A DNA stretch of 64,000 nt from Amphiura filiformis (taxonomy: Eukaryota > Echinodermata > Ophiuroidea > Amphilepidida > Amphiuridae), in NCBI RefSeq assembly GCF_039555335.1, contig NC_092641.1:39078437-39142436 (forward strand), given 5' to 3'. The notes beneath the pieces were generated by a model. That model was not told where the DNA came from. It did no database searches and saw only the letters and a list, made by a program, of their open reading frames with translations. This document shows, piece by piece, positions 17,131-63,100 of the stretch; position 1 is the first letter of the stretch; the number at the start of each line of letters is the position of its first letter. The position numbers were made by a program, and so were the translations under genes.

Positions 17131-22695
<5,565 letters not shown>

Positions 22696-43736: not shown

Positions 43737-44748
43737 TATATGAAGGGTTTACAAAAAATAACTCCCCCCTAAAATTACAAAACATTTTTTTGCATAACTT
43801 GACATACATTTCGTGGATTTGAAAAATTAAAAAACCTGTAAATAAAGGAATTGTTTTTCTACCCTCCCAACGTTCTTTTGTCTGAAAATCTTTTTGTTTT
43901 GGCCAAAAATAATCACGTTTTCTAAAAATGATGCTTTCAGAAAAAGTTGCACTTTTCAACATCCTCATTTATGTCAAAATTAGCTTCAACAAATCATTAT
44001 TTTGCACTACGTGACGGTTGCATGGGTGACTAAGAGTTCAGAGACAAAAAGGTGAAGGAAAAAAACCAAATTAAATCAATCGTAACATTGATACCGAGGA
44101 AGTTTTGTACATTACATGTATAGGATGTTGAAAAGCGCAACTTTTTTTAAAGCATCATTTTTGAAAAATGTGATTATTTTTGACCAAAACCAAAAAATTC
44201 TTTAGAAGGAATAACTTTGGTAGTGTAGCAAACGATTCCTCTATTCAAATGTTTTAAAAATTTTCAAATCAAGAAAATGAATGTTAAGTTATGCAAAGAA
44301 ATGTTTTGTAACTCCTAAATTGATTTTACCATTTTGAAACACCGGCTCAATAAAATCTTCTAGAAAAACCCCGTACATGTCAATTAGTCATTGTTTTATA
44401 CTGCAAGATGATTGCATGGGTGACTGAGTAATCCTATACATAAAAATTAAAGAAAATAAAAACACCATTAAATAAATCAAAGCATTGATATCGAGAATGT
44501 TTTTGTACATTAAATGTATAGGATGTGGAAAAGTGCAACTTTTTCTGAAAAAAAAAAAATAAAAAAATGTGATTATTTTTGGCCAAAACAAAAATATTTT
44601 TTAAGTAAAGAACTTTGGGAGGGTAGGAAAATGATTCCTTTATTCACAGGTTTTTAGATTTTTCAAATCAACGAAATGTATGTCAAGTTATGCAAAGAAA
44701 TGTCTAGTAATTTTAAGGGGGGAGTTATTTTTTGTGAACCCTTTATAG
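43737..44748. mobile_element. Three-module foldback element at the array edge
   Basis: A module of about 240 bp (GGATGT.GAAAAG.GCAACTTTTT, GTGATTATTTTTG.CCAAAA, TTATGCAAAGAAATGT, GGGGGGAGTTATTTTTTGTG) occurs inverted at about 43740-43985 and direct at about 44105-44330 and 44505-44748. The outer copies make a foldback. Its right end coincides with the first base of the tandem array. Confidence 0.75.
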
Positions 44749-45482
44749 TTTTGAAAAGAAAAGACGGGGATAGAACCGAACCTGTTAAGAAACAACCCAA
44801 GACAGGTGTCTGGTGGTATTTTTATACCTTATAGGCTTCCCTCCCTCTTCGGGGGTGGGATAAAAAGATATATTCTTGTGGCTTCTTCGTGAGAGATTAT
44901 AGCATTTTCTTCATTAAACTGAGATTCAGATGTGAGCGATTCTTGACGCAGAATCTTGTCCTAAGTGGGAAAATTTGGTCTTTCAAAAACCTATTTTCAA
45001 ACAGGATTTATAGTGAATTTGTTCGATATTTCACCATGTAGTAGGTGTATGGAAAAAGGTAGTATAGGCGGGAAAATTCCTTTTTAGAGAGGTTTAGCAT
45101 GGTGTCAGCTTGTCCTCAAAGGAGCGTTATAATTTTCTTTATGCTTTTCTTTATATGGGAGACGCTTGCTTTTACGTCCGGAAAGAAAGCACCGTGTAGT
45201 TAAAATATATGAAGCTTCAGATCTTATATTTCGCGCGCCAACAATCTTGACCGTGCGATGACATCGTAGGCGGAAAGGGCGTCGACCCCGCTATGAAGCG
45301 GTGCTGTACTAAGGTATATGCAAGCCCGGCCATGTGTAGGTACGATTTCTAGTCTGCTTTATAGTTTCTTGTGCTATCTGTTAAAGATAACGTGATTAAA
45401 AAAGGAAAGAATAGAAATCGGATTTCTTCAATTTCATGAATTAAGACCGATAAAATGGTCTTTATGTGTGAGTGGTACTGAT
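44749..45482. repeat. Subrepeat A of unit 1 (734 bp)
   Basis: It starts TTTTGAAAAGAAAAGACGGG and ends GTGAGTGGTACTGA. A diverged relative, B, follows directly. Shared landmarks include GGTGTCTGGTGGTATTTTTA, TTATAGCATTTTCTTCATTA, GGTTTAGCATGGTGTCAGC and AACGTGATT. No conserved ORF. Confidence 0.85.
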
Positions 45483-46172
45483 TTTTGAAAAGAAAAGACT
45501 GGGATAGAACCGAACCTGTTGCGAAACAACCCAAGACGGGTGTCTGGTGGTATTTTTATACCTTTCAGGTAAAAAGATCCATTCTTGTGGCTTCTTTGTG
45601 GGAGATTATAGCATTTTCTTCATTAAACTGAGATTCGGATGTGAGCGATTCTTTAGTTAGAACCTTGTCCAGAGTGGAAAGATTGGTCTTTCTAAAACCT
45701 ATTTTCAAACTGGATTTAAAATGAATTTGTCCCGATATTCCCCATGTAGTAGCTTTATGGAAAAAGGTAGAAAATGCGGGAAAATGTCTCTTTAGAGAGG
45801 TTTAGCATGGTGTCAGCCTTTCCTCAAAGGTGCGTTATAAAATTTCTTTATGCTTTTCTTTATATGAGAGGCGGTTCCTTTTACGTCCGAAAAGAAAGCA
45901 CCGTATAGTGAAAATACATAGCTTCAGATCTCACATTTCGCGCCATCAATCTTGACCGCACGATGACATCGAAGGCGGAAAGGCCGACGACCCCGCTATG
46001 AGGCGGCGCTGTACTGTGGTTTGTGAAATCCCAGCCTTGTGTAGACACGATTTCTAGTCAGCTTTATAGATCTTGTGCTATCTGTTAAAGATAACGTGAT
46101 TGAAAAAGAAATCGGATTTCTTCAATTTCAAGAAATAAGACCGATAAAGTGGTCTTTGGGTGTAAGTGGTAC
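45483..46172. repeat. Subrepeat B of unit 1
   Basis: It starts TTTTGAAAAGAAAAGACTGG. It is the same landmark series as A but consistently different, for example ACCTTTCAGGTAAAAAGATC in place of the TTCCCTCCCTCTTCGGGG segment. The A/B differences are the same in every unit, so the two types diverged before the array was amplified. Confidence 0.8.
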
Positions 46173-47142
46173 TTCTGAAGTAGAAGTAGAACTCGAGTGG
46201 GGGGGGTTTGTATAATTATGTGTGTGTGAGTGTGTGGTAAGTGAATGTGTGTCACGTCTGGGCCCGTTTCGGGCCTAAGTGGATAAGAGACATCCCTCGC
46301 GTGGCGATGGGAGAGAATAGTTTAAAAACTTTTCCATCAGTAGTGAGTGACTTTGCGAGAAACTTTCAATATTAGTTTTGGGAGGGATGCGATTGCATCC
46401 CTTTGGTAGGCAAATATAAAATAATATTTGGCCCGTTCTGTAAAGGGCGATTTTACAGAGGGAATAAAACGATGAAAAATAATTTCTGTGTGGAAAATAT
46501 TACCTCAAAGGATAAATTCCCGCACCAGGAGTCGTGAGGAAGAACTGATAACCTCGTGAAGTAGTTCACTTAGTGATATAATTCAATATTCTTCCTTTGC
46601 GTTTTTAGATAACGTATCTTAAACATCTCCTTGGAGGCTCGCTATCTGAGGAAGATAGTTAGAATGGAGATATCGACAAGAATAAAAATGGCTTTGGATA
46701 TAAGCCTAAAAAATGATACAGGTAATCGGTCTGCTGCTATTTGTTTTGGTTATGGAATAGCTTTAGGCCTGTACAATGTATACGTGCGTTTCTTAAACAT
46801 GTTAGGCGTTGAGCTTAACAGGTACCATCTTGCTTCATATATATTTGAAACGAGATTAACTTGTCATGATAAAGATGACTTTCTTTATTTTTTATGCTTT
46901 ATGTGTAATTTTCCTTATTTGGAAAAGTAGCATTAATTTGTAGACTCCTGGCTATACGCTAGGAAATATACTAACATAAACATTTCTTGAAATTATCGAG
47001 AAATGTCGATGCGAGAAAGTGCAAGCAGTTAGTAAGACGCGTATCCGGGAGATTTAAATCCCTTTATTCTATTTTCATCGTTTAAATTTTTTGTTAGATA
47101 TTCTCTTATAAAAGGTTATTAGAAAGAGAATTGAAAATATCA
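46173..47142. other. Non-coding part of unit 1 between subrepeats and RT 3' end
   Basis: Contains (GT)-rich GTGTGTGTGAGTGTGTGG, the hairpin-forming CGTTCTGTAAAGGGCG..TTTTACAG segment and a plus-strand 99-codon frame from 46631. That frame starts with TTG, gains 6 bp in unit 2 and is broken in unit 3. I see no supportable gene. Confidence 0.5.
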
Positions 47143-47173
47143 GACGCGTTTCTGGAATGAAATCCTTCATCAG
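47143..47173 (-). ncRNA. Hammerhead-like core downstream of RT, unit 1
   Basis: The minus strand reads CTGATGA (47173-47167), a weak stem II GGA/UCC inside 14 nt, GAAAC (47152-47148), two bases, then GTC (47145-47143). The element order fits a minimal hammerhead with a very short stem III, as described for Penelope-like elements, and it lies in the sense orientation of the RT. Stem I is not convincing and there is an A.A mismatch at the base of stem II, so it may be a relic. It is identical in unit 2 (54840-54870). Confidence 0.4.
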
Positions 47174-47318
47174 TTACCCTGCTACTTGGTCATGTTGGTC
47201 GTGGTAAACCCGGACCTATGTTATTTTATGCTCTTAAAAGTCGCGTTTCACCGGGTATGATGGTGTGGCTTTGTGAGAGCAAGAGAACCAGAAATGTAGG
47301 AGACTGGTTTGTGATTTG

Positions 47319-47402
47319 CAGGACCAAGAACGAGTCCTGATTAAAAGTTAAACTGCTTTGAGTTTAACTTTTGTGTAAATCTTTGCCTTTATGGAAAGAT
47401 TT
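47319..47402. other. Three consecutive hairpins downstream of the RT stem-loop
   Basis: Perfect stems: 6 bp CAGGAC/GTCCTG (47319-47339), 12 bp AAAAGTTAAACT with its complement around a 6-nt loop (47343-47372), and 8 bp AAATCTTT/AAAGATTT (47377-47402). With the histone-type stem-loop at 47406-47421 they make four hairpins in about 100 bp. In unit 2 the only change in the 12-bp hairpin is in the loop. Confidence 0.7.
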
Positions 47403-47405
47403 GTT

Positions 47406-47421
47406 AGCTCTGAAAAGAGCT
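47406..47421 (-). promoter_or_regulatory. Histone-type 3' stem-loop of the RT gene, unit 1
   Basis: The minus strand reads AGCTCTTTTCAGAGCT: a 6-bp stem and UUUC loop, as in histone mRNAs, with the outer G-C pair replaced by A-U and the essential second G-C retained. Flanks are ACA before and AACA after. A purine-rich AAAGGCAAAGA follows at about 16 nt as a possible histone downstream element. It lies about 100 nt after the RT stop. I infer U7/SLBP-type 3' processing. Confidence 0.7.
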
Positions 47422-47522
47422 GTTGTGGTTTTTGTTTATATAAAATGTGAAAGGTGTGAGGTGTGTGTCGTTTTTGCAACGTGCTTTAACTCTGTCGAAT
47501 ACATCACATATCTTGTCTCTTT

Positions 47523-49614
47523 TCAAAACTCGATATCTGAGTCGTCCCCGGGATACCTTCCGGTGTTGTCTTCAGGTGTGAAGAAGTAATCGTTGAAACC
47601 TCTGCTTTCTAAAGCTAGATCATATAGCATGTTGAGAGTTGGGGAGCCTGGACGTGTCTCTTCGAAAAGAATGCTTTCGTCTGTGACTAGATTCTTTGGA
47701 GAGTTCAATCTGGCTCTGACAAGTGTGTCGCTCAAGTTTTGAGCTCTGCTGAATGCTATAATTGGGACCTTCGGAAAGATCCTTTTCAAAGTTGGATTAT
47801 CTTTAACGATGTCCCAATGCTTCAGTATGGCATGTTTGATGTGGTTCCCACTTATCTGTGGGAAGAATTGTGACTTGAAGACCAAAGGGATCTTGTTCGA
47901 TCTTTTCGGTTTCTCTGTCAAATATGCCTGTCTATTTTCAAAGAACACTTCTTTCGAAGCTGTATTGATTTCTTTGAGGTTATAACCTCTGCTTAGAAGT
48001 TTTTCTGTGAAGATTGTTTTCCTGTCATCATAAGACTTTTTTTCACTGGAGTTCCTGACTAGTCTGATTAGTTCTCCTTTGATGAACCCTTTGAAAACTG
48101 AGGGATTGTGACATGAGCTTCTGTCCAGGTAACCCCACGTCTCTGTGGGTTTAGTGAAGCATTTTATGTCGAGGATATTTTGACGATTGAAAACGATCTC
48201 CTTTGTAGATGGTGAGATCTAGGAATTGGATTTCGTTTTCTGATGCTACGTGTGTGAACTTGAGAGATGGGTGGAGATCGTTTATTTTGGACACAAAAAT
48301 CTCAAGTTGTTCCACTGATCCTGACCACATCATTAGAGAGTCATCCATGTAGACATGGAAAGATATGATGTGTTCGTCCATATGTAATATTTTCTGGACC
48401 AACCTATTTGCGACTAGGCAGCTGAGAGATACGCTGGATCTTAGGCCCATAGGGGTTCCTGAGATTTGAAGAAAATGGTGACCATTAAATTCGAAGGCGT
48501 TCCTGAAAAGAACGAGAGTCAAAAGCTTTCTCATATATTGCAAATTAGGCATGGGAGGGTCGAAGGATAACGGATTGACCCCTTCCAATGCTTCCATGGC
48601 TACCTCTAATGCCTCCTCTTGAGGAACTGAGGTGAACATGCTAACTATATCTATGCTCGCAAGAATTATATTGCTCGGAAGGACCAGTTGTTCGATTTTA
48701 CGAATGGTGTCCGCTGTATCTTTAAGATACGTGGGTGCTTTCTGGACTTCCGGTAAGAGGTAATGGTCAAGAAATTCTGAGATTCTGTTGAGTGGTGATC
48801 CGCAGTGTGACGTCACTGGGCGGCCTATAAAGGTGCCGCTTTTTGGTGTTTTATGTACTTTTGGTAACATGAAAAACACTGGTGTTTTTGTTTGTGCACT
48901 GTCTACTGGATCTAAGTAATCTGCTAATGCCTTGTCGATCTCTTTTGATTGACACATCTCGTTAATTAGGTCACTAACCAAATCAGTGGTAGAAGTTGTC
49001 ATGTCATAGTCTAGTTTGAGATATGATTTTTTGTCCAAAAGTTGTCTATGACCCTCGGATACGTAATCCTTTTTGGACAAAATGCAAATTCCTCTCCCTT
49101 TATCGAACTTTTTCAGAACGATATCAGGGTTATTTTTCAATTTCTTTACAGCCTGGATTTCAACCTTACTCATGTTGGGTTGTGTGTTTTTGATCGGAAT
49201 ATCTGCTAATTCCGTCCTCATTCCTTCCAGATAGTCTTCTAAGCCTATACCGGCGGCCAGACCAGGAATCCATGTTGATGGGTTTCTGAATCTGTGCCTG
49301 GATTTCCAGCCTCTCATTGCTGCATGGAATCGAATCCTCATGTTTCTCGCTAAACCGTCTGCAGCCTCCATCAGGAAGCGTTTTGTGGGTTTGCTTGGTG
49401 TGGGTATAAAGGATAAACCTTTAGAAAGCGCAATTGTTTCCGACTCTGAAAGTTCGTAGTCAGAAAGGTTCTTAACGAATTGTTTTGCTTTATTTACCAT
49501 AAGTTCCCTTTTAGAACTTCTGGTTTGTGTTCTACTTAATAAGTTAGACTTCCTTTTCTTACGTCTAATATGAGTAGATTCCCTGTGTAGGTGCTTGCGG
49601 AAGTGGCGTCCCAT
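47523..49614 (-). pseudogene. Penelope-like reverse transcriptase, unit 1 (one frameshift)
   Basis: The start chosen is ATG at 49614 (MGRHFRKHLH). Frame-corrected length is about 696 aa. A basic N-terminus comes first, then NLSDYELSESE, the Penelope-type LPKVHKTPK (about 250) and GRPVTSHCGSPLNRISEFLD, motif A DIVSMFTSV (322-330), motif B TPMGLRSSVS (387-396), catalytic YMDD (422-425), and the thumb with NHIKHAILKHWDIV. The C-terminus is acidic (DDSDIEF). There is no GIY-YIG endonuclease at either end, unlike canonical Penelope, so this is an EN-minus type as known for Athena/Coprina. An extra T in the run 48177-48181 breaks the frame. Unit 2 lacks it, so it may be a sequencing error. Confidence 0.85.
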
Positions 49615-49642
49615 GTTTGAATATATAAAAGGGGTTAGGTTG

Positions 49643-49690
49643 TACACAATTTATTGTGTTCGCTACCCTATTCTTATATATAAGTATAAA
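49643..49690 (-). promoter_or_regulatory. TATA box and dyad at the RT start, unit 1
   Basis: On the minus strand TATATATAAG (49682-49673) precedes a dyad ACACAATAAATTGTGT (49659-49644) by about 14 nt, and the RT ATG follows at 49614. Initiation at the dyad would give a short leader. The same TATA plus dyad pair occurs at about 50292-50340. Confidence 0.5.
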
Positions 49691-49934
49691 TATATTATAT
49701 GAATATATTTAGTATATAAGTGAAAAGGAATACTAGAAAGCTGGTGTCTCGAGAGTGACGAGCGATAAAACAAAACGTATGATAAGTGACTGACTATCAG
49801 CGTACTCTTTCCGAAGACCGGCTGGCACCGTGTTCACCCATTGAGCTGCATTGGCTCAAATGGTGAGGAATCGGGGTGAATTTTGCTTTTGTTAGGAAGC
49901 AGGGATCCTAGAACGGATCCTAGCAAGTCCTGCG

Positions 49935-50040
49935 TTCTGATTGGCTCCCTGAGCGTATGCACTGGCCAATCCTGTCGTGAAACTGACAGTAAAATTTTCT
50001 GATTGGTTGTTCAGAATGGCGCTAAAAAAGGCGGGGCCTA
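49935..50040 (-). promoter_or_regulatory. CCAAT/GC-box cluster upstream of RT, unit 1
   Basis: ATTGG/CCAAT boxes at 49940-49944, 49966-49970 and 50002-50006, a GGCGGGGC box at 50031-50038, and on the minus strand TTTTTTAGCGCC, close to an E2F site. Several CCAAT boxes plus E2F-like sites are typical of S-phase genes, including histones. Function is inferred. Confidence 0.5.
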
Positions 50041-50291
50041 GGGGGGGGTTTGCTTCCTGAGCGAATCTGTCCCTGGATGGTTGTCTGGTTGCCGCCAAGT
50101 GAATGTTCCCATTTTCATGGTGTGACGACATTGATAATTCTGAGTCCCAAGGTTTGAGTCAAATGGATTTTATATGAAAAAATGTATTACTAAAGCATTG
50201 GGCGCTTTATTTTGTCATCTACAGTATATTCAGACCCTATGGTGGAGCCTACGAGTATGTTGGCCCTTGTTTAATATTATTATAGGATGTC

Positions 50292-50340
50292 ACACAATTT
50301 ATTGTGTTGATCAATCTGTTTATATAATATATTTATAGCA
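50292..50340 (-). promoter_or_regulatory. Second TATA-plus-dyad element, unit 1
   Basis: ACACAATTTATTGTGT at 50292-50307 repeats exactly the dyad at 49644-49659, again with a TATA-rich stretch (TTTATATAATATATTTATAG) on the upstream side for the minus strand. It lies between the ORF1 3' stem-loops and the RT CCAAT cluster. Could be an alternative RT promoter. Confidence 0.4.
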
Positions 50341-50419
50341 TAGGGAGAGATTGTGTTGCTAATCTTTATTAAGATTAGGGGTGGATGGGTAATACACAAA
50401 AAGCATTTGACTTTTGTCA

Positions 50420-50430
50420 CTCTCTTTTTG
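50420..50430 (-). promoter_or_regulatory. Histone-downstream-element-like purine tract, unit 1
   Basis: The minus strand reads CAAAAAGAGAG beginning 11 nt after the perfect stem-loop, the usual spacing of the U7-pairing element (CAAGAAAGA in sea urchins, from general knowledge). Confidence 0.5.
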
Positions 50431-50441
50431 GGAAAAGTGGT

Positions 50442-50457
50442 GGCTCTGAAAAGAGCC
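50442..50457 (-). promoter_or_regulatory. Perfect histone mRNA 3' stem-loop after ORF1, unit 1
   Basis: The minus strand reads GGCTCTTTTCAGAGCC preceded by CCCAAC and followed by ACCAC. This is the metazoan replication-dependent histone stem-loop with its conserved flanks. It lies 56 nt after the ORF1 stop, a normal histone distance. Known role of the motif: binds SLBP and, with U7 snRNP, directs cleavage without polyadenylation. Confidence 0.9.
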
Positions 50458-50473
50458 GTTGGGTTTTTGTGGT

Positions 50474-50489
50474 GGGTCTGAAAAGAGCC
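50474..50489 (-). promoter_or_regulatory. Second histone-type stem-loop after ORF1, unit 1
   Basis: GGCTCTTTTCAGACCC, one C.C mismatch in the stem, flanked by AAAC and ACCACA. It lies 24 nt after the stop and 16 nt before the perfect copy. It looks like a local duplication in which this copy has decayed slightly. Confidence 0.75.
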
Positions 50490-50513
50490 GTTTGGATCTC
50501 GGTCTTTCACCGG

Positions 50514-51389
50514 CTACCGTGACCCACCTTGGTGTTGCTTGCCTCTTTTCGGGCCATTCCAATGGGACCTCTGTGGTCCCCATTGCCATATTTGAGGAGG
50601 ATAGTAGTGTGCCGGTGGTTGGTAATCGGCTCGTTGCCTCTTGCCTCCCTGATGCCTATGGTGTGGCTGCTGGCGTTTCACCGGTAGTTGCGTTTTTCTT
50701 TTCGAGATATTCTTATGCCTGTAGTTATCTCCTCTCTTGTCTCTCTTCTTAGAGATCTCTGCTTTGAGCTTGGAAAACGCCTCTCCTAGCTCAAGAGGAA
50801 GGCAATCCTCTTTGAGTTTTGCCTCTGCTCTCTGGACCGTGTCTTGGCAGTCTCGTTCACACTCTGGGATTATTTTAGTGACCAGGTCGTCCCTAAGGCG
50901 CCTTACGAATTCTTTGTCGTGTGCGTTTTTCATGGCGTCCAACTCTGTCCTGGCTCTCACTGTAAAGTTATATCCCTGTGCTAGTAGTGGCAATTCTCTC
51001 TTACCTGAGAGCCCCTTTGGAAGATCAGATTTGTCTTCGAGCACGTTGGTATACAGCTCACGTTTGGCTTCTAAGCTTGCCAGTGCGTGATACGACCTGT
51101 CTACCGTTTTAACTAGCTCGAATACGAAAGAATTGGTGACTTTTGAAAGCGCCTTTTCTTCCGGTGAGGGTTTTTCAACCCTGTTTTCCTTGTTTTCTGC
51201 CTCTTTCGGAGTTGCTGAGTCTAAACTTGGTTCTTTTGAACCTTGTCTAGGAGCGGAGTTGACTTTGGCATTGTCTTCCTGTGTCTCCGGTATTACCATT
51301 ACTTTATTCTGGTCCTTCGATGAGTCTTTATTGGTGGTGCTAAGTTTATTTTTCCTAGCGGTGAAAGGTTTGAATTGCTTGAGAGACAT
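50514..51389 (-). CDS. ORF1 of the Penelope-like unit 1, basic-tailed protein
   Basis: 291 aa from the ATG at 51389 (MSLKQFKPFT). The frame is open 13 codons further upstream but only from a TTG. Order: Lys/Ser/Glu-rich N-terminus (1-95), a predicted helical core from NSFVFELVKTVDRSYHALAS through DLPKGLSGKRELPLL to KLKEDCLPLELGEAFSKLKA (about 100-215), then a basic, Gln/His/Pro/Gly-rich tail (KRKTQLPVKRQQPHHRHQ..) likely to bind RNA. The LPxGL core resembles, from memory, ORF1 of some Penelope-like elements. No GIY-YIG, zinc finger or protease is seen. It is immediately followed by two histone-type stem-loops. Intact in both units. A gag-like or RT-partner role is inference. Confidence 0.75.
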   Translation of the reverse strand: MSLKQFKPFTARKNKLSTTNKDSSKDQNKVMVIPETQEDNAKVNSAPRQGSKEPSLDSATPKEAENKENRVEKPSPEEKALSKVTNSFVFELVKTVDRSYHALASLEAKRELYTNVLEDKSDLPKGLSGKRELPLLAQGYNFTVRARTELDAMKNAHDKEFVRRLRDDLVTKIIPECERDCQDTVQRAEAKLKEDCLPLELGEAFSKLKAEISKKRDKRGDNYRHKNISKRKTQLPVKRQQPHHRHQGGKRQRADYQPPAHYYPPQIWQWGPQRSHWNGPKRGKQHQGGSR

Positions 51390-51429
51390 GATGAAAATGA
51401 CTGATACCGGTGAGTAGCTGAGACCCAAT

Positions 51430-51720
51430 GAAATAGAAATCCATAAAACCCGCTCAGATAAGGAGAAATGGTGTTAGCGCTGATTGGTTGTAAAAGCGGA
51501 CATTTTGATTGGATGTGTGAAAGGCGAAGTATCGTGTGATTGGATGCAGGGCTTGGCGCTGAAACCGGTATGGGATTTGAATCCCATTCGGGTCGTAAAA
51601 AAGATCCTACTGAGTCGGGTTGCTGTGATAGGCTCCTCGGTGGAGGGGGAAAGGCCAATCGGTGTGAACACTATCAGCTAATTTTTTTCATTGGTTGATA
51701 GCTGTGCGACGAGGAAGAGA
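51430..51720 (-). promoter_or_regulatory. CCAAT-rich upstream region of ORF1, unit 1
   Basis: Five CCAAT/ATTGG boxes in both orientations: 51483-51487, 51508-51512, 51539-51543, 51655-51659 and 51690-51694. AGCGCTAAC and TTGGCGCTGAAACC words lie close by. The nearest CCAAT is about 95 bp from the ORF1 ATG. The density recalls histone-gene promoters (NF-Y). A clear TATA box is not seen. Confidence 0.5.
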
Positions 51721-52088
51721 AAAATATGACATGGTCCCGCCAATACGATCTTTCTCTAAATTGTGTTGAAAAACAACAGAAAGAGAAAAGATACCTTGCT
51801 GTAACGTAAAGTGAACCTGGTAGACTGGGCTAAATAATGTAAAGCCATGGTTCCGTTTCCAGAAAAAAGAAATGGGGTAAAATTATATAGAAAAAACTAT
51901 ATAAAAAAAAATATATATCACCCTGAACCATTAAAGAAAACGCTTTTTTTTATAAATAAAAAGAAAAGGGAAAGAGGTGCTTTGCCCCTGTTGATGCTTT
52001 TTAATATGATATAATACTGTTGCCAGACTATATATAATATAGATCTGTAAGAAAATGCCTCGGGTGGCCGTCAACAGAATATAAAAAT

Positions 52089-52104
52089 AGCTCTTTTCAG
52101 TGCT
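52089..52104 (+). promoter_or_regulatory. Imperfect histone-type stem-loop on the plus strand
   Basis: AGCTCTTTTCAGTGCT: a six-pair stem with one T.T mismatch and the UUUC loop, opposite in direction to the other three. The flanks do not match (TAATAG after). It is conserved at 59779-59794. No plus-strand ORF leads into it, so it may be chance or a relic. Confidence 0.3.
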
Positions 52105-52441
52105 AATAGTATAGGAAGAGGCCTATGAGTGGGATACCAAACCTGTTGGTAAGTTTCCATCAAAATGGAAGAAATTATTTGAGTTTCTTTCCTGTGATGG
52201 CTTTATAGAAGCCAAGAAGGGAGTGATGGAAATTATTATGATTGTGTGAATGTCTAAGAAGTACGGTGTCCTCCTTACAAAGGGGTCCGTGGCCCTCCTC
52301 GGGAGGTTACTCAACGAGGGATACTCAGACCAGTAACCCAAAGGAGCTACTGCGAGTATACTACCGATTCGCCGGCCGTCACCCACTCGAGCTTTTAGAA
52401 AACATTAATGAGTTCTAGAGCCCGGGGGGGTAGTGACAAAT

Positions 52442-53880
52442 TTTTGAAAAGAAAAGACGGGGATAGAACCGAACCTGTTAAGAAACAACCCAAGACAGGT
52501 GTCTGGTGGTATTTTTATACCTTATAGGCTTCCCTCCCTCTTCGGGGTGGGATAAAAAGATATATTCTTGTGGCTTCTTCGTGAGAGATTATAGCATTTT
52601 CTTCATTAAACTGAGATTCAGATGTGAGCGATTCTTGACGCAGAATCTTGTCCTAAGTGGGAAAATTTGGTCTTTCAAAAGCCTATTTTCAAACAGGATT
52701 TATAGTGAATTTGTTCGATATTTCACCATGTAGTAGGTGTATGGAAAAAGGTAGTATAGGCGGGAAAATTCCTTTTTAGAGAGTTTTAGCATGGTGTCAG
52801 CTTGTCCTCAAAGGAGCGTTATAATTTTCTTTATGCTTTTCTTTATATGGGAGACGCTTGCTTTTACGTCCGGAAAGAAAGCACCGTGTAGTTAAAATAT
52901 ATGAAGCTTCAGATCTTATATTTCGCGCGCCAACAATCTTGACCGTGCGATGACATCGTAGGCGGAAAGGGCGTCGACCCCGCTATGAAGCGGTGCTGTA
53001 CTAAGGTATATGCAAGCCCGGCCATGTGTAGGTACGATTTCTAGTCTGCTTTATAGTTTCTTGTGCTATCTGTTAAAGATAACGTGATTAAAAAAGGAAA
53101 GAATAGAAATCGGATTTCTTCAATTTCATGAATTAAGACCGATAAAATGGTCTTTATGTGTGAGTGGTACTGATTTTTGAAAAGAAAAGACTGGGATAGA
53201 ACCGAATCTGGTGCAAAACAACCCAAGACGGGTGTCTGGTGGTATTTTTATACCTTTCAGGTAAAAAGATCCATTCTTGTGGCTTCTTTGTGGGAGATTA
53301 TAGCATTTTCTTCATTAAACTGAGATTCGGATGTGAGCGATTCTTTAGTTAGAACCTTGTCCAGAGTGGAAAGATTGGTCTTTCTAAAACCTATTTTCAA
53401 ACTGGATTTAAAATGAATTTGTCCCGATATTCCCCATGTAGTAGCTTTATGGAAAAAGGTAGAAAATGCGGGAAAATGTCTCTTTAGAGAGGTTTAGCAT
53501 GGTGTCAGCCTTTCCTCAAAGGTGCGTTATAAAATTTCTTTATGCTTTTCTTTATATGAGAGGCGGTTCCTTTTACGTCCGAAAAGAAAGCACCGTATAG
53601 TGAAAATACATAGCTTCAGATCTCACATTTCGCGCCATCAATCTTGACCGCACGATGACATCGAAGGCGGAAAGGCCGACGACCCCCGCTATGAGGCGGC
53701 GCTGTACTGTGGTTTGTGAAATCCCAGCCTTGTGTAGACACGATTTCTAGTCAGCTTTATAGATCTTGTGCTATCTGTTAAAGATAACGTGATTGAAAAA
53801 GAAATCGGATTTCTTCAATTTCAAGAAATAAGACCGATAAAGTGGTCTTTGGGTGTAAGTGGTACTTCTGAAGTAGAAGT
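52442..53880. repeat. Subrepeats A and B of unit 2
   Basis: A is 52442-53174 and B is 53175-about 53862. Nearly identical to the A and B of unit 1, respectively. No gene. Confidence 0.85.
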
Positions 53881-54839
53881 AGAACTCGAGTGGGGGGGGT
53901 TTGTATAATTATGTGTGTGTGAGTGTGTGGTAAGTGAATGTGTGTCACGTCTGGGCCCGTTTCGGGCCTAAGTGGATAAGAGACATCCTCGCGTGGCGAT
54001 GGGAGAGAAGAGTCGCAAAACTTTTCCATCAGTAGTGAGTGACTTTGCGAGAAACTTTCAATATTAGTTTTGGGAGGATGCGATTGCATCCCTTTGGTAG
54101 GCAAATATAAAATAATAATTGGCCCGTTCTGTAAAGGGCGATTTTACAGAGGGAAAAAAAAAAAAAAAAATAATTTCTGTGTGGAAAATATTACCTCAAA
54201 GGATAAATTCCCGCACCAGGAGTCGTGAGGAAGAACTGATAACCTCGTGAAGTAGTTCACTTAGTGATATAATTCAATATTCTTCCTTTGCGTTTTTAGA
54301 TAACGTATCTTAAACATCTCCTTGGAGGCTCGCTATCTGAGGAAGATAGTTAGAATGGAGATATCGACAAGAATAAAAATAAAAATGGCTTTGGATATAA
54401 GCCTAAAAAATGATACAGGTAATCGGTCTGCTGCTATTTGTTTTGGTTATGGAATAGCTTTAGGCCTGTACAATGTATACGTGCGTTTCTTAAACATGTT
54501 AGGCGTTGAGCTTAACAGGTACCATCTTGCTTCATATATATTTGAAACGAGATTAACTTGTCATGATAAAGATGACTTTCTTTATTTTTTATGCTTTATG
54601 TGTAATTTTCCTTATTTGGAAAAGTAGCATTAATTTGTAGACTCCTGGCTATACGCTAGGAAATATACTAACATAAACATTTCTTGAAATTATCGAGAAA
54701 TGTCGATGCGAGAAAGTGCAAGCAGTTAGTAAGACGCGTATCCGGGAGATTTAAATCCCTTTATTCTATTTTCATCGTTTAAATTTTTTGTTAGATATTC
54801 TCTTATAAAAGGTTATTAGAAAGAGAATTGAAAATATCA

Positions 54840-54870
54840 GACGCGTTTCTGGAATGAAATCCTTCATCAG
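54840..54870 (-). ncRNA. Hammerhead-like core downstream of RT, unit 2
   Basis: Same CTGATGA, GAAAC, GTC series as at 47143-47173, unchanged. It shares the weak stem I and stem II of the unit 1 copy. Confidence 0.4.
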
Positions 54871-55102
54871 TTACCCTGCTACTTGGTCATGTTGGTCGTG
54901 GTAAACCCGGACCTATGTTATTTTATGCTCTTAAAAGTCGCGTTTCACCGGGTATGATGGTGTGGCTTTGTGAGAGCAAGAGAACCAGAAATGTAGGAGA
55001 CTGGTTTGTGATTTGCAGGACCAAGAACGAGTCCTGATTAAAAGTTAAACTGCTTGGAGTTTAACTTTTGTGTAAATCTTTGCCTTTATGGAAAGATTTG
55101 TT

Positions 55103-55118
55103 AGCTCTGAAAAGAGCT
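55103..55118 (-). promoter_or_regulatory. Histone-type 3' stem-loop of the RT gene, unit 2
   Basis: AGCTCTTTTCAGAGCT on the minus strand, unchanged from unit 1, about 85-110 nt downstream of the RT end depending on which frame is used there. Confidence 0.7.
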
Positions 55119-55200
55119 GTTGTGGTTTTTGTTTATATAAAATGTGAAAGGTGTGAGGTGTGTGTCGTTTTTGCAACGTGCTTTAACTCTGTCGAATACA

Positions 55201-57304
55201 TCACATATCTTGTCTCTTTTCAAAACTCGATATCTGAGTCGTCCCAGGATACCTTCCGGTGTTGTCTTCAGGTGTGAAGAAGTAATCGTTGAAACCTCTG
55301 CTTTCTAAAGCTAGATCATATAGCATGTTGAGAGTTGGGGAGCCTGGACGTGTCTCTTCGAAAAGAATGCTTTCGTCTGTGACTAGATTCTTTGGAGAGT
55401 TCAATCTGGCTCTGACAAGTGTGTCGCTCAAGTTTTGAGCTCTGCTGAATGCTATAATTGGGACCTTCGGAAAGATCCTTTTCAAAGTTGGATTATCTTT
55501 AACGATGTCCCAATGCTTCAGTATGGCATGTTTGATGTGGTTCCCACTTATCTGTGGGAAGAATTGTGACTTGAAGACCAAAGGGATCTTGTTCGATCTT
55601 TTCGGTTTCTCTGTCAAATATGCCTGTCTATTTTCAAAGAACACTTCTTTCGAAGCTGTATTGATTTCTTTGAGGTTATAACCTCTGCTTAGAAGTTTTT
55701 CTGTGAAGATTGTTTTCCTGTCATCATAAGACTTTTTGTCACTGGAGTTCCTGACTAGTCTGATTAGTTCTCCTTTGATGAACCCTTTGAAAACTGAGGG
55801 ATTGTGACATGAGCTTCTGTCCAGGTAACCCCACGTCTCTGTGGGTTTAGTGAAGCATTTTATGTCGAGGATATTTGACGATTGAAAACGATCTCCTTTG
55901 TAGATGGTGAGATCTAGGAATTGGATTTCGTTTTCTGATGCTACGTGTGTGAACTTGAGAGATGGGTGGAGATCGTTTATTTTGGACACAAAAATCTCAA
56001 GTTGTTCCACTGATCCTGACCACATCATTAGAGAGTCATCCATGTAGACATGGAAAGATATGATGTGTTCGTCCATATGTAATATTTTCTGGACCAACCT
56101 ATTTGCGACTAGGCAGCTGAGAGATACGCTGGATCTTAGGCCCATAGGGGTTCCTGAGATTTGAAGAAAATGGTGACCATTAAATTCGAAGGCGTTCCTG
56201 AAAAGAACGAGAGTCAAAAGCTTTCTCATATATTGCAAATTAGGCATGGGAGGGTCGAAGGATAACGGATTGACCCCTTCCAATGCTTCCATGGCTACCT
56301 CTAATGCCTCCTCTTGAGGAACTGAGGTGAACATGCTAACTATATCTATGCTCGCAAGAATTATATTGCTCGGAAGGACCAGTTGTTCGATTTTACGAAT
56401 GGTGTCCGCTGTATCTTTAAGATACGTGGGTGCTTTCTGGACTTCCGGTAAGAGGTAATGGTCAAGAAATTCTGAGATTCTGTTGAGTGGTGATCCGCAG
56501 TGTGACGTCACTGGGCGGCCTATAAAAGTGCCGCTTTTTGGTGTTTTATGTACTTTTGGTAACATGAAAAACACTGGTGTTTTTGTTTGTGCACTGTCTA
56601 CTGGATCTAAGTAATCTGCTAATGCCTTGTCGATCTCTTTTGATTGACACATCTCGTTAATTAGGTCACTAACCAAATCAGTGGTAGAAGTTGTCATGTC
56701 ATAGTCTAGTTTGAGATATGATTTTTGTCCAAAAGTTGTCTATGACCCTCGGATACGTAATCCTTTTTGGACAAAATGCAAATTCTCTCCCTTTATCGAA
56801 CTTTTTCAGAACGATATCAGGGTTATTTTTCAATTTCTTTACAGCCTGGATTTCAACCTTACTCATGTTGGGTTGTGCATTTTGATCGGAATATCTGCTA
56901 ATTCCGTCCTCATTCCTTCCAGATAGTCTTCTAAGCCTATACTTGGGACAAGACCAGGAATCCATGTTGATGGGTTTCTGAATCTGTGCCTGGATTTCCA
57001 GCCTCTCATTGCTGCATGGAATCGAATCCTCATGTTTCTCGCTAAACCGTCTGCAGCCTCCATCAGGAAGCGTTTTGTGGGTTTGCTTGGTGTGGGTATA
57101 AAGGATAAACCTTTAGAAAGCGCAATTGTTTCCGACTCTGAAAGTTCGTAGTCAGAAAGGTTCTTAACGAATTGTTTTGCTTTATTTACCATAAGTTCCC
57201 TTAGAACTTCTGGTTTGTGTTCTACTTAATAAGTTAGACTTCCTTTTCTTACGTCTAATATGAGTAGATTCCCTGTGTAGGTGCTTGCGGAAGTGGCGTC
57301 CCAT
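55201..57304 (-). pseudogene. Penelope-like reverse transcriptase, unit 2 (several frameshifts)
   Basis: From the internal Met at 56697 one open frame carries the whole catalytic RT (LPKVHKTPK, DIVSMFTSV, YMDDSLMMW) and thumb, including the stretch that is frameshifted in unit 1. The N-terminal part is broken by a 2-base deletion near 57202, changes near 56940 and 56876, and single-base losses near 56784 and 56725. A one-base loss near 55243 replaces the acidic tail with a longer one ending at 55201. So units 1 and 2 are each broken, but at different positions. Most breaks sit in homopolymers and could be assembly error. Confidence 0.85.
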
Positions 57305-57335
57305 GTTTGAATATATAAAAGGGGTTAGGTTGTAC

Positions 57336-57790
57336 ACAATTTATTGTGTTCGCTACCCTATTCTTATATATAAGTATAAATATATTATATGAATATATTT
57401 AGTATATAAGTGAAAAGGAATACTAGAAAGCTGGTGTCTCGAGAGTGACGAGCGATAAAACAAAACGTATGATAAGTGACTGACTATCAGCGTACTCTTT
57501 CCGAAGACCGGTTGGCACTGTGTTCACCCATTGAGCTGCATTGGCTCAAATGGTGAGGAATCGGGGTGAATTTTGCTTTTGTTAGGAAGCAGGATCCTAG
57601 AACGGATCCTAGCAAGTCCTGCGTTCTGATTGGCTCCCTGAGCGTATGCACTGGCCAATCCTGTCGTGAAACTGACAGTAAAATTTTCTGATTGGTTGTT
57701 CAGAATGGCGCTAAAAAGGCGGGGCCTAGGGGGGGTTTGCTTCCTGAGCGAATCTGTCCCTGGATGGTTGTCTGGTTGCCGCCAAGTGAA
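57336..57790 (-). promoter_or_regulatory. RT upstream region, unit 2 (TATA, dyad, CCAAT cluster)
   Basis: The same TATATATAAG plus ACACAATAAATTGTGT pair as unit 1 lies just before the ATG position, followed upstream by CCAAT boxes (TCTGATTGGCTCC, ACTGGCCAATCC, TCTGATTGGTTG) and a GGCGGGGC box. The dyad recurs near 57979. Confidence 0.5.
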
Positions 57791-58128
57791 TGTTCCCATT
57801 TTCATGGTGTGACGACATTGATAATTCTGAGTCCCAAGGTTTGAGTCAAATGGATTTTATATGAAAAAATGTATTACTAAAGCATTGGGCGCTTTATTTT
57901 GTCATCTACAGTATATTCAGACCCTATGGTGGAGCCTACGAGTATGTTGGCCCTTGTTTAATATTATTATAGGATGTCACACAATTTATTGTGTTGATCA
58001 ATCTGTTTATATAATATATTTATAGCATAGGGAGAGATTGTGTTGCTAATCTTTATTAAGATTAGGGGTGGATGGGTAATACACAAAAAGCATTTGACTT
58101 TTGTCACTCTCTTTTTGGGAAAAGTGGT

Positions 58129-58144
58129 GGCTCTGAAAAGAGCC
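58129..58144 (-). promoter_or_regulatory. Perfect histone mRNA 3' stem-loop after ORF1, unit 2
   Basis: GGCTCTTTTCAGAGCC with the same CCCAAC and ACCAC flanks and the same purine tract 11 nt downstream as in unit 1. Confidence 0.9.
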
Positions 58145-58160
58145 GTTGGGTTTTTGTGGT

Positions 58161-58176
58161 GGGTCTGAAAAGAGCC
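58161..58176 (-). promoter_or_regulatory. Second histone-type stem-loop after ORF1, unit 2
   Basis: GGCTCTTTTCAGACCC, with the same single mismatch as unit 1, 24 nt after the ORF1 stop. Confidence 0.75.
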
Positions 58177-58200
58177 GTTTGGATCTCGGTCTTTCACCGG

Positions 58201-59076
58201 CTACCGTGACCCACCTTGGTGTTGCTTGCCTCTTTTCGGGCCATTCCAATGGGACCTCTGTGGTCCCCATTGCCATATTTGAGGAGGATAGTAGTGTGCC
58301 GGTGGTTGGTAATCGGCTCGTTGCCTCTTGCCTCCCTGATGCCTATGGTGTGGCTGCTGGCGTTTCACCGGTAGTTGCGTTTTCTTTGTCGAGATATTCT
58401 TATGCCTGTAGTTATCTCCTCTCTTGTCTCTCTTCTTAGAGATCTCTGCTTTGAGCTTGGAAAACGCCTCTCCTAGCTCAAGAGGAAGGCAATCCTCTTT
58501 GAGTTTTGCCTCTGCTCTCTGGACCGTGTCTTGGCAGTCTCGTTCACACTCTGGGATTATTTTAGTGACCAGGTCGTCCCTAAGGCGCCTTACGAATTCT
58601 TTGTCGTGTGCGTTTTTCATGGCGTCCAACTCTGTCCTGGCTCTCACTGTAAAGTTATATCCCTGTGCTAGTAGTGGCAATTCTCTCTTACCTGAGAGCC
58701 CCGTTGGAAGATCAGATTTGTCTTCGAGCACGTTGGTATACAGCTCACGTTTGGCTTCTAAGCTTGCCAGTGCGTGATACGACCTGTCTACCGTTTTAAC
58801 TAGCTCGAATACGAAAGAATTGGTGACTTTTGAAAGCGCCTTTTCTTCCGGTGAGGGTTTTTCAACCCTGTTTTCCTTGTTTTCTGCCTCTTTCGGAGTT
58901 GCTGAGTCTAAACTTGGTTCTTTTGAACCTTGTCTAGGAGCGGAGTTGACTTTGGCATTGTCTTCCTGTGTCTCCGGTATTACCATTACTTTATTCTGGT
59001 CCTTCGATGAGTCTTTATTGGTGGTGCTAAGTTTATTTTTCCTAGCGGTGAAAGGTTTGAATTGCTTGAGAGACAT
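58201..59076 (-). CDS. ORF1 of the Penelope-like unit 2
   Basis: 291 aa from ATG 59076, the same length as in unit 1. There are only a few substitutions (for example LPTGL for LPKGL, and STKK for SKRK near the basic tail). The frame is intact despite frequent indels elsewhere in the unit. This suggests either selection on ORF1 or better read accuracy here. Confidence 0.75.
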   Translation of the reverse strand: MSLKQFKPFTARKNKLSTTNKDSSKDQNKVMVIPETQEDNAKVNSAPRQGSKEPSLDSATPKEAENKENRVEKPSPEEKALSKVTNSFVFELVKTVDRSYHALASLEAKRELYTNVLEDKSDLPTGLSGKRELPLLAQGYNFTVRARTELDAMKNAHDKEFVRRLRDDLVTKIIPECERDCQDTVQRAEAKLKEDCLPLELGEAFSKLKAEISKKRDKRGDNYRHKNISTKKTQLPVKRQQPHHRHQGGKRQRADYQPPAHYYPPQIWQWGPQRSHWNGPKRGKQHQGGSR

Positions 59077-59106
59077 GATGAAAATGACTGATACCGGTGA
59101 GTAGCT

Positions 59107-59400
59107 GAGACCCAATGAAATAGAAATCCATAAAACCCGCTCAGATAAGGAGAAATGGTGTTAGCGCTGATTGGTTGTAAAGCGGACATTTTGATTGGAT
59201 GTGTGAAAGGCGAAGTATCGTGTGATTGGATGCAGGCTTGGCGCTGAAACCGGTATGGGATTTGAATCCCATTCGGGTCGTAAAAAAGATCCTACTGAGT
59301 CGGGTTGCTGTGATAGGCTCCTCGGTGGAGGGGGAAAGGCCAATCGGTGTGAACACTATCAGCTAATTTTTTTCATTGGTTGATAGCTGTGCGACGAGGA
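59107..59400 (-). promoter_or_regulatory. CCAAT-rich upstream region of ORF1, unit 2
   Basis: Counterpart of 51430-51720, with the same five ATTGG/CCAAT boxes and AGCGC words. One base of an A-run and one G are lost relative to unit 1. Confidence 0.5.
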
Positions 59401-59778
59401 AGAGAAAAATATGACATGGTCCCGCCAATACGTTCTTTCTCTAAAATAAATAAAAAAACAACAGAAAGAGAAAAGATACCTTGCTGTAACGTAAAGTGAA
59501 CCAGGTAGACTAGGCTAAATAATGTAAAGCCATGGTTCCGTTTCCAGAAAAAAGAAATGGGGGTAAAATTATATAGAAAAAAACTATATAAAAAAAAAAT
59601 ATATATCACCCTGAACCACAAAGAAAACGCTTTCTTTTTTATAAATAAAAAAGAAAAGGGAAAGAGGTGCTTTGCCCCTGTTGATGCTTTTTAATATGAT
59701 ATAATACTGTTGCCAGACTATATATAATATAGATCTGTAAGAAAATGCCTCGGGTGGCCGTCAACAGAATATAAAAAT

Positions 59779-59794
59779 AGCTCTTTTCAGTGCT
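59779..59794 (+). promoter_or_regulatory. Imperfect plus-strand histone-type stem-loop, unit 2
   Basis: Same AGCTCTTTTCAGTGCT as 52089-52104. See that entry for doubts. Confidence 0.3.
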
Positions 59795-60133
59795 AATAGT
59801 ATAGGAAGAGGCCTATGAGTGGGATACCAAACCTGTTGGTAAGTTTCCATCAAAATGGAAGAAATTATTTGAGTTTCTTTCCTGTGATGGCTTTATAGAA
59901 GCCAAGAAGGGAGTGATGGAAATTATTATGATTGTGTGAATGTCTAAGAAGTACGGTGTCCTCCTTACAAAGGGGTCCGTGGCCCTCCTCGGGAGGTTAC
60001 TCAACGAGGGATACTCAGACCAGTAACCCAAAGGAGCTACTGCGAGTATACTACTGATTCGCCGGCCGTCACCCACTCGAGCTTTTAGAAAACATTAATG
60101 AGTTCTAGAGCCCGGGGGGGGGTAGTGACAAAT

Positions 60134-63100
60134 TTTTGAAAAGAAAAGACGGGGATAGAACCGAACCTGTTAAGAAACAACCCAAGACAGGTGTCTGGTG
60201 GTATTTTTATACCTTATAGGCTTCCCTCCCTCTTCGGGGGTGGGAAAAAAGATATATTCTTGTGGCTTCTTCGTGAGAGATTATAGCATTTTCTTCATTA
60301 AACTGAGATTCAGATGTGAGCGATTCTTGACGCAGAATCTTGTCCTAAGTGGGAAAATTTGGTCTTTCAAAAACCTATTTTCAAACAGGATTTATAGTGA
60401 ATTTGTTCGATATTTCACCATGTAGTAGGTGTATGGAAAAAGGTAGTATAGGCGGGAAAATTCCTTTTTAGAGAGGTTTAGCATGGTGTCAGCTTGTCCT
60501 CAAAGGAGCGTTATAATTTTCTTTATGCTTTTCTTTATATGGGAGACGCTTGCTTTACGTCCGGAAAGAAAGCACCGTGTAGTTAAAATATATGAAGCTT
60601 CAGATCTTATATTTCGCGCCAACAATCTTGACCGTGCGATGACATCGTAGGCGGAAAGGGCGTCGACCCCGCTATGAAGCGGTGCTGTACTAAGGTATAT
60701 GCAAGCCCGGCCATGTGTAGGTACGATTTCTAGTCTGCTTTATAGTTTCTTGTGCTATCTGTTAAAGATAAAAAAAAAAAAAAGGAAAGAATAGAAATCG
60801 GATTTCTTCAATTTCATGAATTAAGACCGATAAAATGGTCTTTATGTGTGAGTGGTACTGATTTTTGAAAAGAAAAGACTGGGATAGAACCGAACCTGTT
60901 GCNAANNNNNNNNNNNNNNNNNNNNNNNNNNNNNNNNNNNNNNNNNNNNNNNNNNNNNNNNNNNNNNNNNNNNNNNNNNNNNNNNNNNNNNNNNNNNNNN
61001 NNNNNNNNNNNNNNNNNNNNNNNNNNNNNNNNNNNNNNNNNNNNNNNNNNNNNNNNNNNNNNNNNNNNNNNNNNNNNNNNNNNNNNNNNNNNNNNNNNNN
61101 NNNNNNAACCTGTTAAGAAACAACCCAAGACAGGTGTCTGGGTGGTATTTTTATACCTTATAGGCTCTCTCCCCTTCGGGGTGGGATAAAAAGATATATT
61201 CTTGTGGCTTTCTTCGTGAGAGATTATAGCATTTTCTTCATTAAAACTGAGATCTCAGGATGTGAAAGCGATTCTTGGACACGCAGAATCTTGTCCCGCG
61301 GGAAAATTCTGGTCCTTCAAAAACCTATTTTCAAAACAGGATTTATAGAAAAGAATTTGTTCGATATTTCACCATGTAGGTAGGTGTGCGGAAAAAAGGT
61401 AGTATAGGCGGGAAAATTCCTTTTTAGAGAGGCTTTAGCATGGTGCCAGCTTGTCCCCAAAGGAGCGTTACACTTTCTTCTATGCTTTTCTTTTTATATG
61501 GGAGACGCTTGCTTTTTACGTCCGGAAAAGAAAGCACCGTGTAGTAAAAATATATGAAGCTTCAGATCTTATATTTCGCGCCAATAATCTTGACTCAAAA
61601 GGATGACATCAATGTAGGCGGAAAGGGCGTCGACCCCGCTAGGAAGCGGTGCTGTACTACGGTATATGCAAGCCCGGCCATGTGTAGGCAACGATTTCTA
61701 GTCTGCTTTATAAGTGTTTGTGCCATCTGTTAAAGATAACGTGATCAAAGTGGTAAGAATAGAAATCGGATTTCTTCAATTTCATGAATTAAAGACCGAC
61801 AAAAATGGTCTTTATGCGTAAAGAGTGGTAAATTTTTGAAAAGAAAAGACGGGGATAGAGCCGAACCTGTTAAGAAACAACCCAATACAGGTGTCTGGTG
61901 GTATTTTTATACCTTATAGCCTTCCCTCCCTCTTGGGGTGGGATAAAAAGATATATTCTTGTGGCTTCTTACCGTGAGAGATTATAGCATTTTCTTCATT
62001 AAACTGAGATTCAGATGTGAGCGATTCTTGGCGCAGAATCTTGTCCTAAGTGGGAAAATTTGGTCCTTCAAAACCTATTTTCAAACAGGATTTATAGTGA
62101 ATTTGTTCGATATTTCACCATGTAGTAGGAGTATGGAAAAAGGTAGTATAGGCGGGAAAATTCCTTTTAGAGAGGTTTAGCATGGTGTCAGCTTGTCCTC
62201 AAAGGGGCGTTATAATTTTCTTTATGCTTTTTCTTTATATGGGAGGCGGCTTGCTTTTACGTCCGGAAAGAAAGCACCGTGTAGTAAAAATATATGAAGC
62301 TTCAGATCTTATATTTCGCGCAACAATCTTGACCGTGCTTGATGACTATCGGTAGGCGGAAAGAGCGTCGACCCGCTATGAAGCGGTGCTGTACTAAGGT
62401 ATATGCAAGCCCGGCCATGTGTAGGTACGATTTCTAGTCTGCTTTATAGTTTCTTGTGCTATCTGTTAAAGATAACGTGATTAAAAAAGGAAAGAATAGA
62501 AATCGGTTTCTTCAATTTCATGAATTAAGACCGATAAAATGGATCTTTATGTGTGAGTGGTACTGATTTTTGAAAAGAAAAGACTGGGATAGAACCTGAA
62601 CCTGTTGTGAAACAACCCAAGGCAGGTGTCTGGTGGTATTTTATACCTTTTAGGTAAAAAGATCCATTCTTGTGGCTTCTTTGTGGGAGATTATAGCATT
62701 TTCTTCATTAAACTGAGATTCGGATGTGAGCGATTCTTTTAGGTAGAACCTTGTCCAGAGTGGAAAGATTGGTCTTTCTAAAACCTATTTTCAAACTGGA
62801 TTTATAGTGAATTTGTCCGATATTCCCCATGTAGTAGCTTTATGGAAAAAGGTAGAAAATGCGGGAAAATTTCTTTTAGAGAGGTTTAGCATGGTGTCAG
62901 CCTTTCCTCAAAGGTGCGTTATAAAATTTCTTTATGCTTTTCTTTATATGAGAGCGGTTCCTTTTACGTCCGAAAAGAAAGCACCGTATAGTGAAAATAC
63001 ATAGCTTCAGATCTCACATTTAGCGCCATCAATCTTGACCGCCGCGATGACATCGAAGGCGGAAAGGCCGACGACCCCGCTATGAGGCGGCGCTGTACTA

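Follow-up and report, generated by a model that had tools for sequence, protein, structure and literature searches.

Two kinds of system bear on the locus described here, the Penelope-like retroelements and the replication-dependent histone genes of animals, whose mRNAs are, to our knowledge, essentially the only animal mRNAs that lack a poly(A) tail. Penelope-like elements are defined with tandem or partly tandem copies that give rise to pseudo-LTRs (LTR, long terminal repeat), and the canonical members encode a reverse transcriptase (RT) and a C-terminal GIY-YIG endonuclease in one open reading frame (ORF) (PMC11167929). Endonuclease-deficient members, such as Athena of rotifers and those of fungi, protists and plants, are defined by two ORFs and no endonuclease, and form head-to-tail tandem copies (PMC3846280 and PMC6431247, both in excerpt). 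We analyzed a stretch of 64,000 nucleotides from the brittle star Amphiura filiformis (contig NC_092641.1, positions 39,078,437 to 39,142,436; hereafter the window, numbered from its first letter), in which an array of such an element carries a histone-type stem-loop after each of its two genes. With a probability that we put at roughly 60%, this is an endonuclease-lacking Penelope element in tandem array whose mRNAs have histone-type ends and are coupled to S phase.

The array resembles the endonuclease-deficient elements in having a Penelope-type RT without GIY-YIG, two ORFs and head-to-tail tandem copies. It differs from them in the histone-type stem-loop after each ORF and in that the window has no telomeric repeat run, the comparison being one of descriptions, not of RT sequences. 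With the canonical elements it shares a homologous RT, tandem copies with pseudo-LTRs and a tentative hammerhead-like core, whereas their single ORF is replaced here by a separate ORF1 and an RT gene, with no GIY-YIG match and with histone-type 3′ ends. Like the replication-dependent histone genes, the array has a stem-loop with a UUUC loop, an ACCA flank, a candidate purine site of the AAAGAG type downstream, upstream CCAAT clusters and tandem units; unlike them, it encodes ORF1 and an RT and not a histone, and a second predicted hairpin follows each stem-loop.

Histone-type stem-loops after both genes

Two complete units of 7.69 kb, both on the minus strand, were delimited by self-BLAST and by their junctions: unit 1 at 44749..52440 (read 52440->44749) and unit 2 at 52442..60133 (read 60133->52442). 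When the array was compared with itself by BLAST, the units were 98.95% identical over 8,486 columns, a self-match that overshoots one unit by ~0.8 kb. Read along the minus strand, each unit opens with a leader and a CCAAT cluster, followed by ORF1 and its histone-type stem-loop. A second CCAAT stretch with an AT-rich region then leads to the RT gene, whose own histone-type stem-loop is separated by ~1.2 kb of other sequence from the two 0.7-kb sub-repeats that close the unit. ORF1 occupies 50514..51389 in unit 1 (minus strand, ATG 51389, stop 50514; 291 codons and a stop) and 58201..59076 in unit 2 (minus strand, ATG 59076, stop 58201), and the RT gene occupies 47523..49614 (minus strand, ATG 49614, stop 47523) and 55220..57304 (minus strand, ATG 57304, stop 55220), respectively.

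After ORF1, a stem-loop with ACCA is found at 50438..50457 in unit 1 (minus strand; Rfam match 50462-50418) and at 58125..58144 in unit 2 (minus strand; Rfam match 58149-58105), and both match the model RF00032 (Histone3) at 39.8 bits, above its gathering score of 34. The stem-loops after the RT gene, at 47402..47421 (minus strand; Rfam match 47426-47381) and 55099..55118 (minus strand; Rfam match 55123-55078), match the same model at 27.3 bits (E 4.6e-4 in 19.3 kb); here the six-pair stem is perfect, with A-U in place of G-C as its first pair. All four hairpins are in sense orientation relative to the gene they follow, with stems starting 56 nt past the ORF1 stop and 101 nt past the RT stop. 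Upstream of the good ORF1 hairpin, at a distance of 32 nt, there is an additional, imperfect hairpin in which one pair is broken (50470..50489 in unit 1 and 58157..58176 in unit 2, minus strand). Among the three distinct hairpins the loop and most of the stem are identical and 17 of 18 pair cells hold standard pairs; one pair is changed on both sides, a pattern that 163 of 500 shuffles equalled and that, with n=3, is weak by itself. As the units are near-copies, the independent evidence in the four good hairpins comes down to two cases, plus the damaged third.

The hairpins are specific to these places. No Histone3 match was found at E<=10 in positions 1-44700, nor at E<=5 in 44700-64000 beyond the four gene 3′ ends. 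The 20-mer comprising stem-loop and ACCA, searched with up to three mismatches, occurs at six places in the 64 kb, all of them in these gene 3′ ends, and gave no match in 100 dinucleotide shuffles; neither the 20-mer nor a 19-mer version had an exact match in the viral contigs searched. Searches of the window with H2A, H2B, H3 and H4 (tblastn) revealed no histone coding (best E 3.1). These results bear out the preliminary description of this DNA, which had proposed two genes per 7.69-kb unit, ORF1 and a Penelope-like RT, each followed in both complete units by a sense histone-type stem-loop. The stem-loops belong to these genes and not to an inserted fragment of a histone gene.

Downstream of the ORF1 hairpin, a candidate histone downstream element, AAAGAG (50422..50427, minus strand), starts at the 15th nt after the stem, and an AAAGA begins at the 22nd nt after the RT stem. 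In an excerpt of PMC7026596, a mouse H2a substrate is described as having AAAGAG for its purine core. Right after each histone-type stem-loop a second hairpin is predicted (50441-50415 and 47405-47372), different in sequence and the same in place. On this folding prediction, the second hairpin could either hide the U7 site or act as a signal of its own.

The reverse transcriptase and ORF1

The RT was compared using the 487 aa of unit 1 up to a frameshift. This query contains an RVT_1 domain (Pfam, E 7.6e-8) and has 124 protein homologues at E<=0.001. Among the 120 of these matches that were listed, the best is an uncharacterized A. filiformis protein with 100% identity over 68% of the query, other A. 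filiformis proteins show 88% and 54% identity, and the closest named relatives are those of this same brittle star, so that by its proteins alone the window would most likely come from A. filiformis or a very close relative. Four relatives that bear GIY-YIG (P0055, P0064, P0066 and P0067; by precomputed label, three of the four rescanned) have 29-31% identity over 87-94% of the query, and the RT can be aligned to P0055 over 89% (E 5.5e-58) and to P0067 over 94% (E 8.0e-47). Being homologous to these GIY-YIG-bearing proteins, the gene encodes a Penelope-type reverse transcriptase.

GIY-YIG itself was not matched in the two unit-1 RT pieces, in the unit-2 frame covering the core and C-terminal part, or in ORF1; in the scan of ORFs of at least 120 aa, RVT_1 in the RT was the only match at E<=1. 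We also built, by a quick method without bootstrap, a tree with 83 rows. These comprised the window RT, the distant locus L001 described below, two shorter A. filiformis proteins and, out of the 120 proteins listed, the 79 with a length of at least 560 aa. The window RT falls inside a set of 36 rows (Shimodaira-Hasegawa-like approximate likelihood ratio test, SH-aLRT, 96), none of which carries the precomputed GIY-YIG label, versus 9 of the 47 rows outside it. The other 38 rows outside the set, some of them perhaps fragments, are likewise unlabelled, so absence of the label alone is a weak sign. Better signs are that relatives of ~700 aa end without GIY-YIG in the alignment and that the unit-2 frame runs through the core and C-terminal part without it. 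Two ORFs and no endonuclease match, the combination by which endonuclease-deficient Penelope-like elements are defined, are thus what the array presents.

The RT had no match in phage records or solved structures, and no locus encoding a relative was found among the viral contigs searched. The genome contigs searched contained one distant related locus (L001:1-4620), which encodes a Penelope-type RT. Its contig is small, carries the label of a cyanobacterium metagenome-assembled genome and probably represents eukaryotic contamination; a hammerhead match (HH9) lies upstream of its RT at 27.1 bits, below the gathering score.

In unit 1 the RT frame has one break, between the RT core and the C-terminal part. 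In unit 2 there are breaks around codon 35 and close to the final residues, with a probable further one in between, where one stretch reads less well (88.9% of one segment); a single 498-aa frame nevertheless comprises the RT core and nearly the whole C-terminal part and is open across the place of the unit-1 break, as is the A. filiformis protein P0001. Because the breaks differ between the units and P0001 is open there, they are either recent or due to errors in assembly; they do not go back to an old loss common to both units. Intact copies of the element probably exist, or else some of the breaks are assembly errors, a kind of error that breaks at different places in near-identical units also make possible in the array at large.

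The frame of ORF1, in contrast to that of the RT, is open in both units. The C-terminus of its product is basic, with a high content of histidine, glutamine and glycine. It is an orphan: no Pfam family was matched at E<=1, no protein homologue at E<=10 (963 candidates) and no PDB relative at E<=1, and the viral contigs searched held no locus encoding a relative.

Upstream motifs and competing explanations

The array contains motifs that we take to be CCAAT boxes, clustered upstream of both genes, and E2F-like sites, in the terminal sub-repeats. CCAAT boxes occur in histone promoters. The region before ORF1 in unit 1 (51387..51740, minus strand) has six of them in 354 bp, three in the form RRCCAATSR, together with one TTGGCGC and, at its outer edge, a TTGGCGG (51737-51743), and the region before the RT gene (49800..50100, minus strand) has four in 301 bp, two of them RRCCAATSR, with one TTGGCGG (50092-50098). 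Of 500 shuffled versions of the unit, 4 had at least six CCAAT within some 300 bp; in positions 1-44700 no 300 bp contain more than four. All five RRCCAATSR of unit 1 lie inside the two upstream stretches, which make up 655 of its 7,692 bp, and the window total of 18, of which 10 are in the array, was reached by 1 of 100 shuffles.

A stricter E2F-like motif, TTTSSCGC, has all 16 of its window matches in the sub-repeats of the array and none in positions 1-44700. The sub-repeats are pseudo-LTR-like terminal pairs, 44749..46173 in unit 1 (minus strand; ~0.7 kb each, 84% alike) and 52440..53866 in unit 2 (minus strand, likewise), each sub-repeat with the E2F-like sites TTTCCCGC and TTTCGCGC, so that the array displays the tandem copies with pseudo-LTRs that are typical of Penelope-like elements. 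The two sites stand ~160 bp apart in seven of the eight sub-repeats compared (in unit 1 at 45068-45236 and 45776-45943); the eighth has TTTCCCGC only. Given that the sub-repeats are mutual copies and that some permuted motifs do as well, the clustering of TTTSSCGC is suggestive only. The looser TTSGCGS was rejected as a promoter sign for being unspecific, with 18 of 36 window matches outside the array and clusters elsewhere too. Taken together, the CCAAT clusters and E2F-like sites may be indicative of S-phase expression, as a weaker and suggestive line of support than the hairpins.

Several observations weigh against histone-style expression of the element. The RT hairpins score under the Histone3 gathering threshold and have an AACA tail in place of ACCA, and the second predicted hairpins (-5.8 and -7.2 kcal/mol) would take up part of the candidate U7 site in base pairs. 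AATAAA or ATTAAA occurs from at least 70 nt after the ORF1 hairpin and at least 332 nt after the RT hairpin; according to excerpts of PMC1924863, however, the ordinary histone genes of worm, human and fly are followed by poly(A) signals too. Neither unit has an unbroken RT frame, and the breaks do not coincide. As for the upstream motifs, the CCAAT total of unit 1 is 20 versus a shuffled mean of 19.2, which is no enrichment, and the two upstream stretches were picked after the CCAAT positions were known. RRCCAATSR averaged 1.1 in unit shuffles with a maximum of 6, and eight matches lie outside the array, in positions 1-44700. The count of TTTSSCGC in a unit was equalled by 4 of 420 permuted E2F motifs, the motif itself included. 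Finally, L001, the single distant related locus, has no Histone3 match at E<=1.

One alternative is that the hairpins serve a protein of the element itself, being bound by the RT or ORF1 as sites of template recognition or initiation, with the likeness to histone mRNA due to an origin from a histone 3′ end or to convergence. For a purified element of the Penelope clade, reverse transcription starts inside an AC-rich stem-loop of its own RNA (PMC11167929), and both hairpins of the present element have AC-rich flanks. However, the visible end of the array and the unit junctions do not lie at the hairpins, as described below, and a hairpin after each of two genes, with a loop and flank of the SLBP type, fits mRNA ends better than it fits a single initiation site. 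We therefore regard this explanation as unlikely.

We find it similarly hard to favour the view that a histone 3′ end was once captured and that the hairpins are now relics, the transcripts using the downstream poly(A) signals. The broken RT frames, the damage to one ORF1 hairpin and the AATAAA signals downstream would all be consistent with such decay. Against it, the good ORF1 hairpin is perfect and scores above the gathering threshold, the RT hairpin retains its perfect six-pair stem despite a first pair that differs on both sides, and the RT breaks, at different places and with P0001 open across that of unit 1, look recent or like assembly errors.

The array might also be a domesticated host gene cluster, regulated like histone genes, no longer mobile and perhaps acting at chromosome ends. 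Near-identical tandem units with histone-like 3′ ends do resemble a histone gene cluster, and Penelope elements lacking the endonuclease can act at telomeres (PMC3846280, in excerpt). Yet neither unit has an intact RT frame, related A. filiformis proteins with 54-100% identity lie on at least two contigs (among the matches listed), and no run of two or more TTAGGG occurs in the 64-kb window, unit-to-unit junctions included, the outer 5′ end of the array being beyond view. Domestication accordingly appears very improbable to us. A telomere array is likewise not supported by the part in view, which has no telomeric run. Telomeric repeats at the 5′ ends of copies and a place at chromosome ends count among the marks of endonuclease-deficient Penelope-like elements; as the junctions lack such runs while the outer 5′ end and the chromosome position are unseen, we file the element as endonuclease-lacking and not as telomere-associated. 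That the hairpins arose by chance or came with an inserted histone-gene fragment has next to no probability, as no point was found in its favour and it is contradicted by the shuffles (0 of 100 with any match), by the confinement of Histone3 matches to these gene 3′ ends, by the lack of a histone-coding match in the window and by the sense orientation of the hairpins after both genes.

Other features of the window were noted. A hammerhead-like core (CTGATGA...GAAAC...GTC) is present at 47143..47173 on the minus strand, with a second copy starting at 54870; no Rfam hammerhead model matched at E<=10 in 46900-47450, where the motif sits, and it is too weak to be called a ribozyme of the kind that Penelope-like elements carry in their terminal repeats. 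An assembly gap (N) spans 60906-61106, beyond which the array resumes as further sub-repeats to the end of the window. Outside the array, a satellite of ~44-bp units, about 97% alike, occupies 20954-22607, and a 62-bp tandem unit with a largely palindromic consensus, matched by several unrelated microRNA models below their gathering scores, lies at 42155-42313. MicroRNA models also matched 15434-15532 below gathering scores; as they did so on both strands, this is probably an inverted repeat.

A possible link between retrotransposition and S phase

The array stops on its visible 3′ side at 44749, with the terminal sequence that also closes the units at both unit-to-unit junctions. This is the end of the terminal sub-repeat, ~2.66 kb past the RT hairpin. 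The template for reverse transcription would for this reason be a transcript other than one ending at the hairpins, and the proposal in the preliminary description that a hairpin gives the RT a defined RNA 3′ end for priming does not agree with the position of these ends. Under the reading that we prefer, an endonuclease-lacking Penelope element with histone-type mRNAs, ORF1 and the RT would be two separate histone-style genes, each with its own CCAAT-clustered upstream region and its own 3′ stem-loop. The host SLBP/U7 machinery would make the ends of both mRNAs, and both proteins would be confined to S phase. The template would be a separate transcript of greater length, running on through both hairpins as far as the terminal sub-repeat or further. 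From the sequence, we consider it reasonable to infer that the gene transcripts are cell-cycle-limited and non-polyadenylated.

Elements without an endonuclease apparently use exposed chromosome ends or double-strand breaks for priming (PMC3846280, in excerpt). Such an element needs DNA ends from elsewhere, and we hypothesize that expression in S phase would suit that need. A more far-reaching version of this idea, which we advance tentatively and consider rather doubtful, is that the element has adopted the programme of histone genes for both the start and the end of its own genes, with promoters of the G1/S type and 3′ ends of the SLBP type, so that the RT and ORF1 would be made only in S phase, when replication would supply the DNA 3′ ends that the element cannot cut for itself.

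The arrangement is likely to be novel. No Penelope-like or other retroelement with histone stem-loops was found in the literature searched, a scope outside which most subscription journals fell, and the words Penelope and histone are absent from the main text of the brittle-star genome paper (PMC11310086). If the preferred reading is true, SLBP and U7 would have a new user in a mobile element that employs the histone 3′ end twice, and its transcripts would be missed by poly(A)-selected RNA-seq. Retrotransposition would also be linked to S phase in a direct and testable way, and there would be consequences for the question of how primers are found by Penelope elements that lack an endonuclease.

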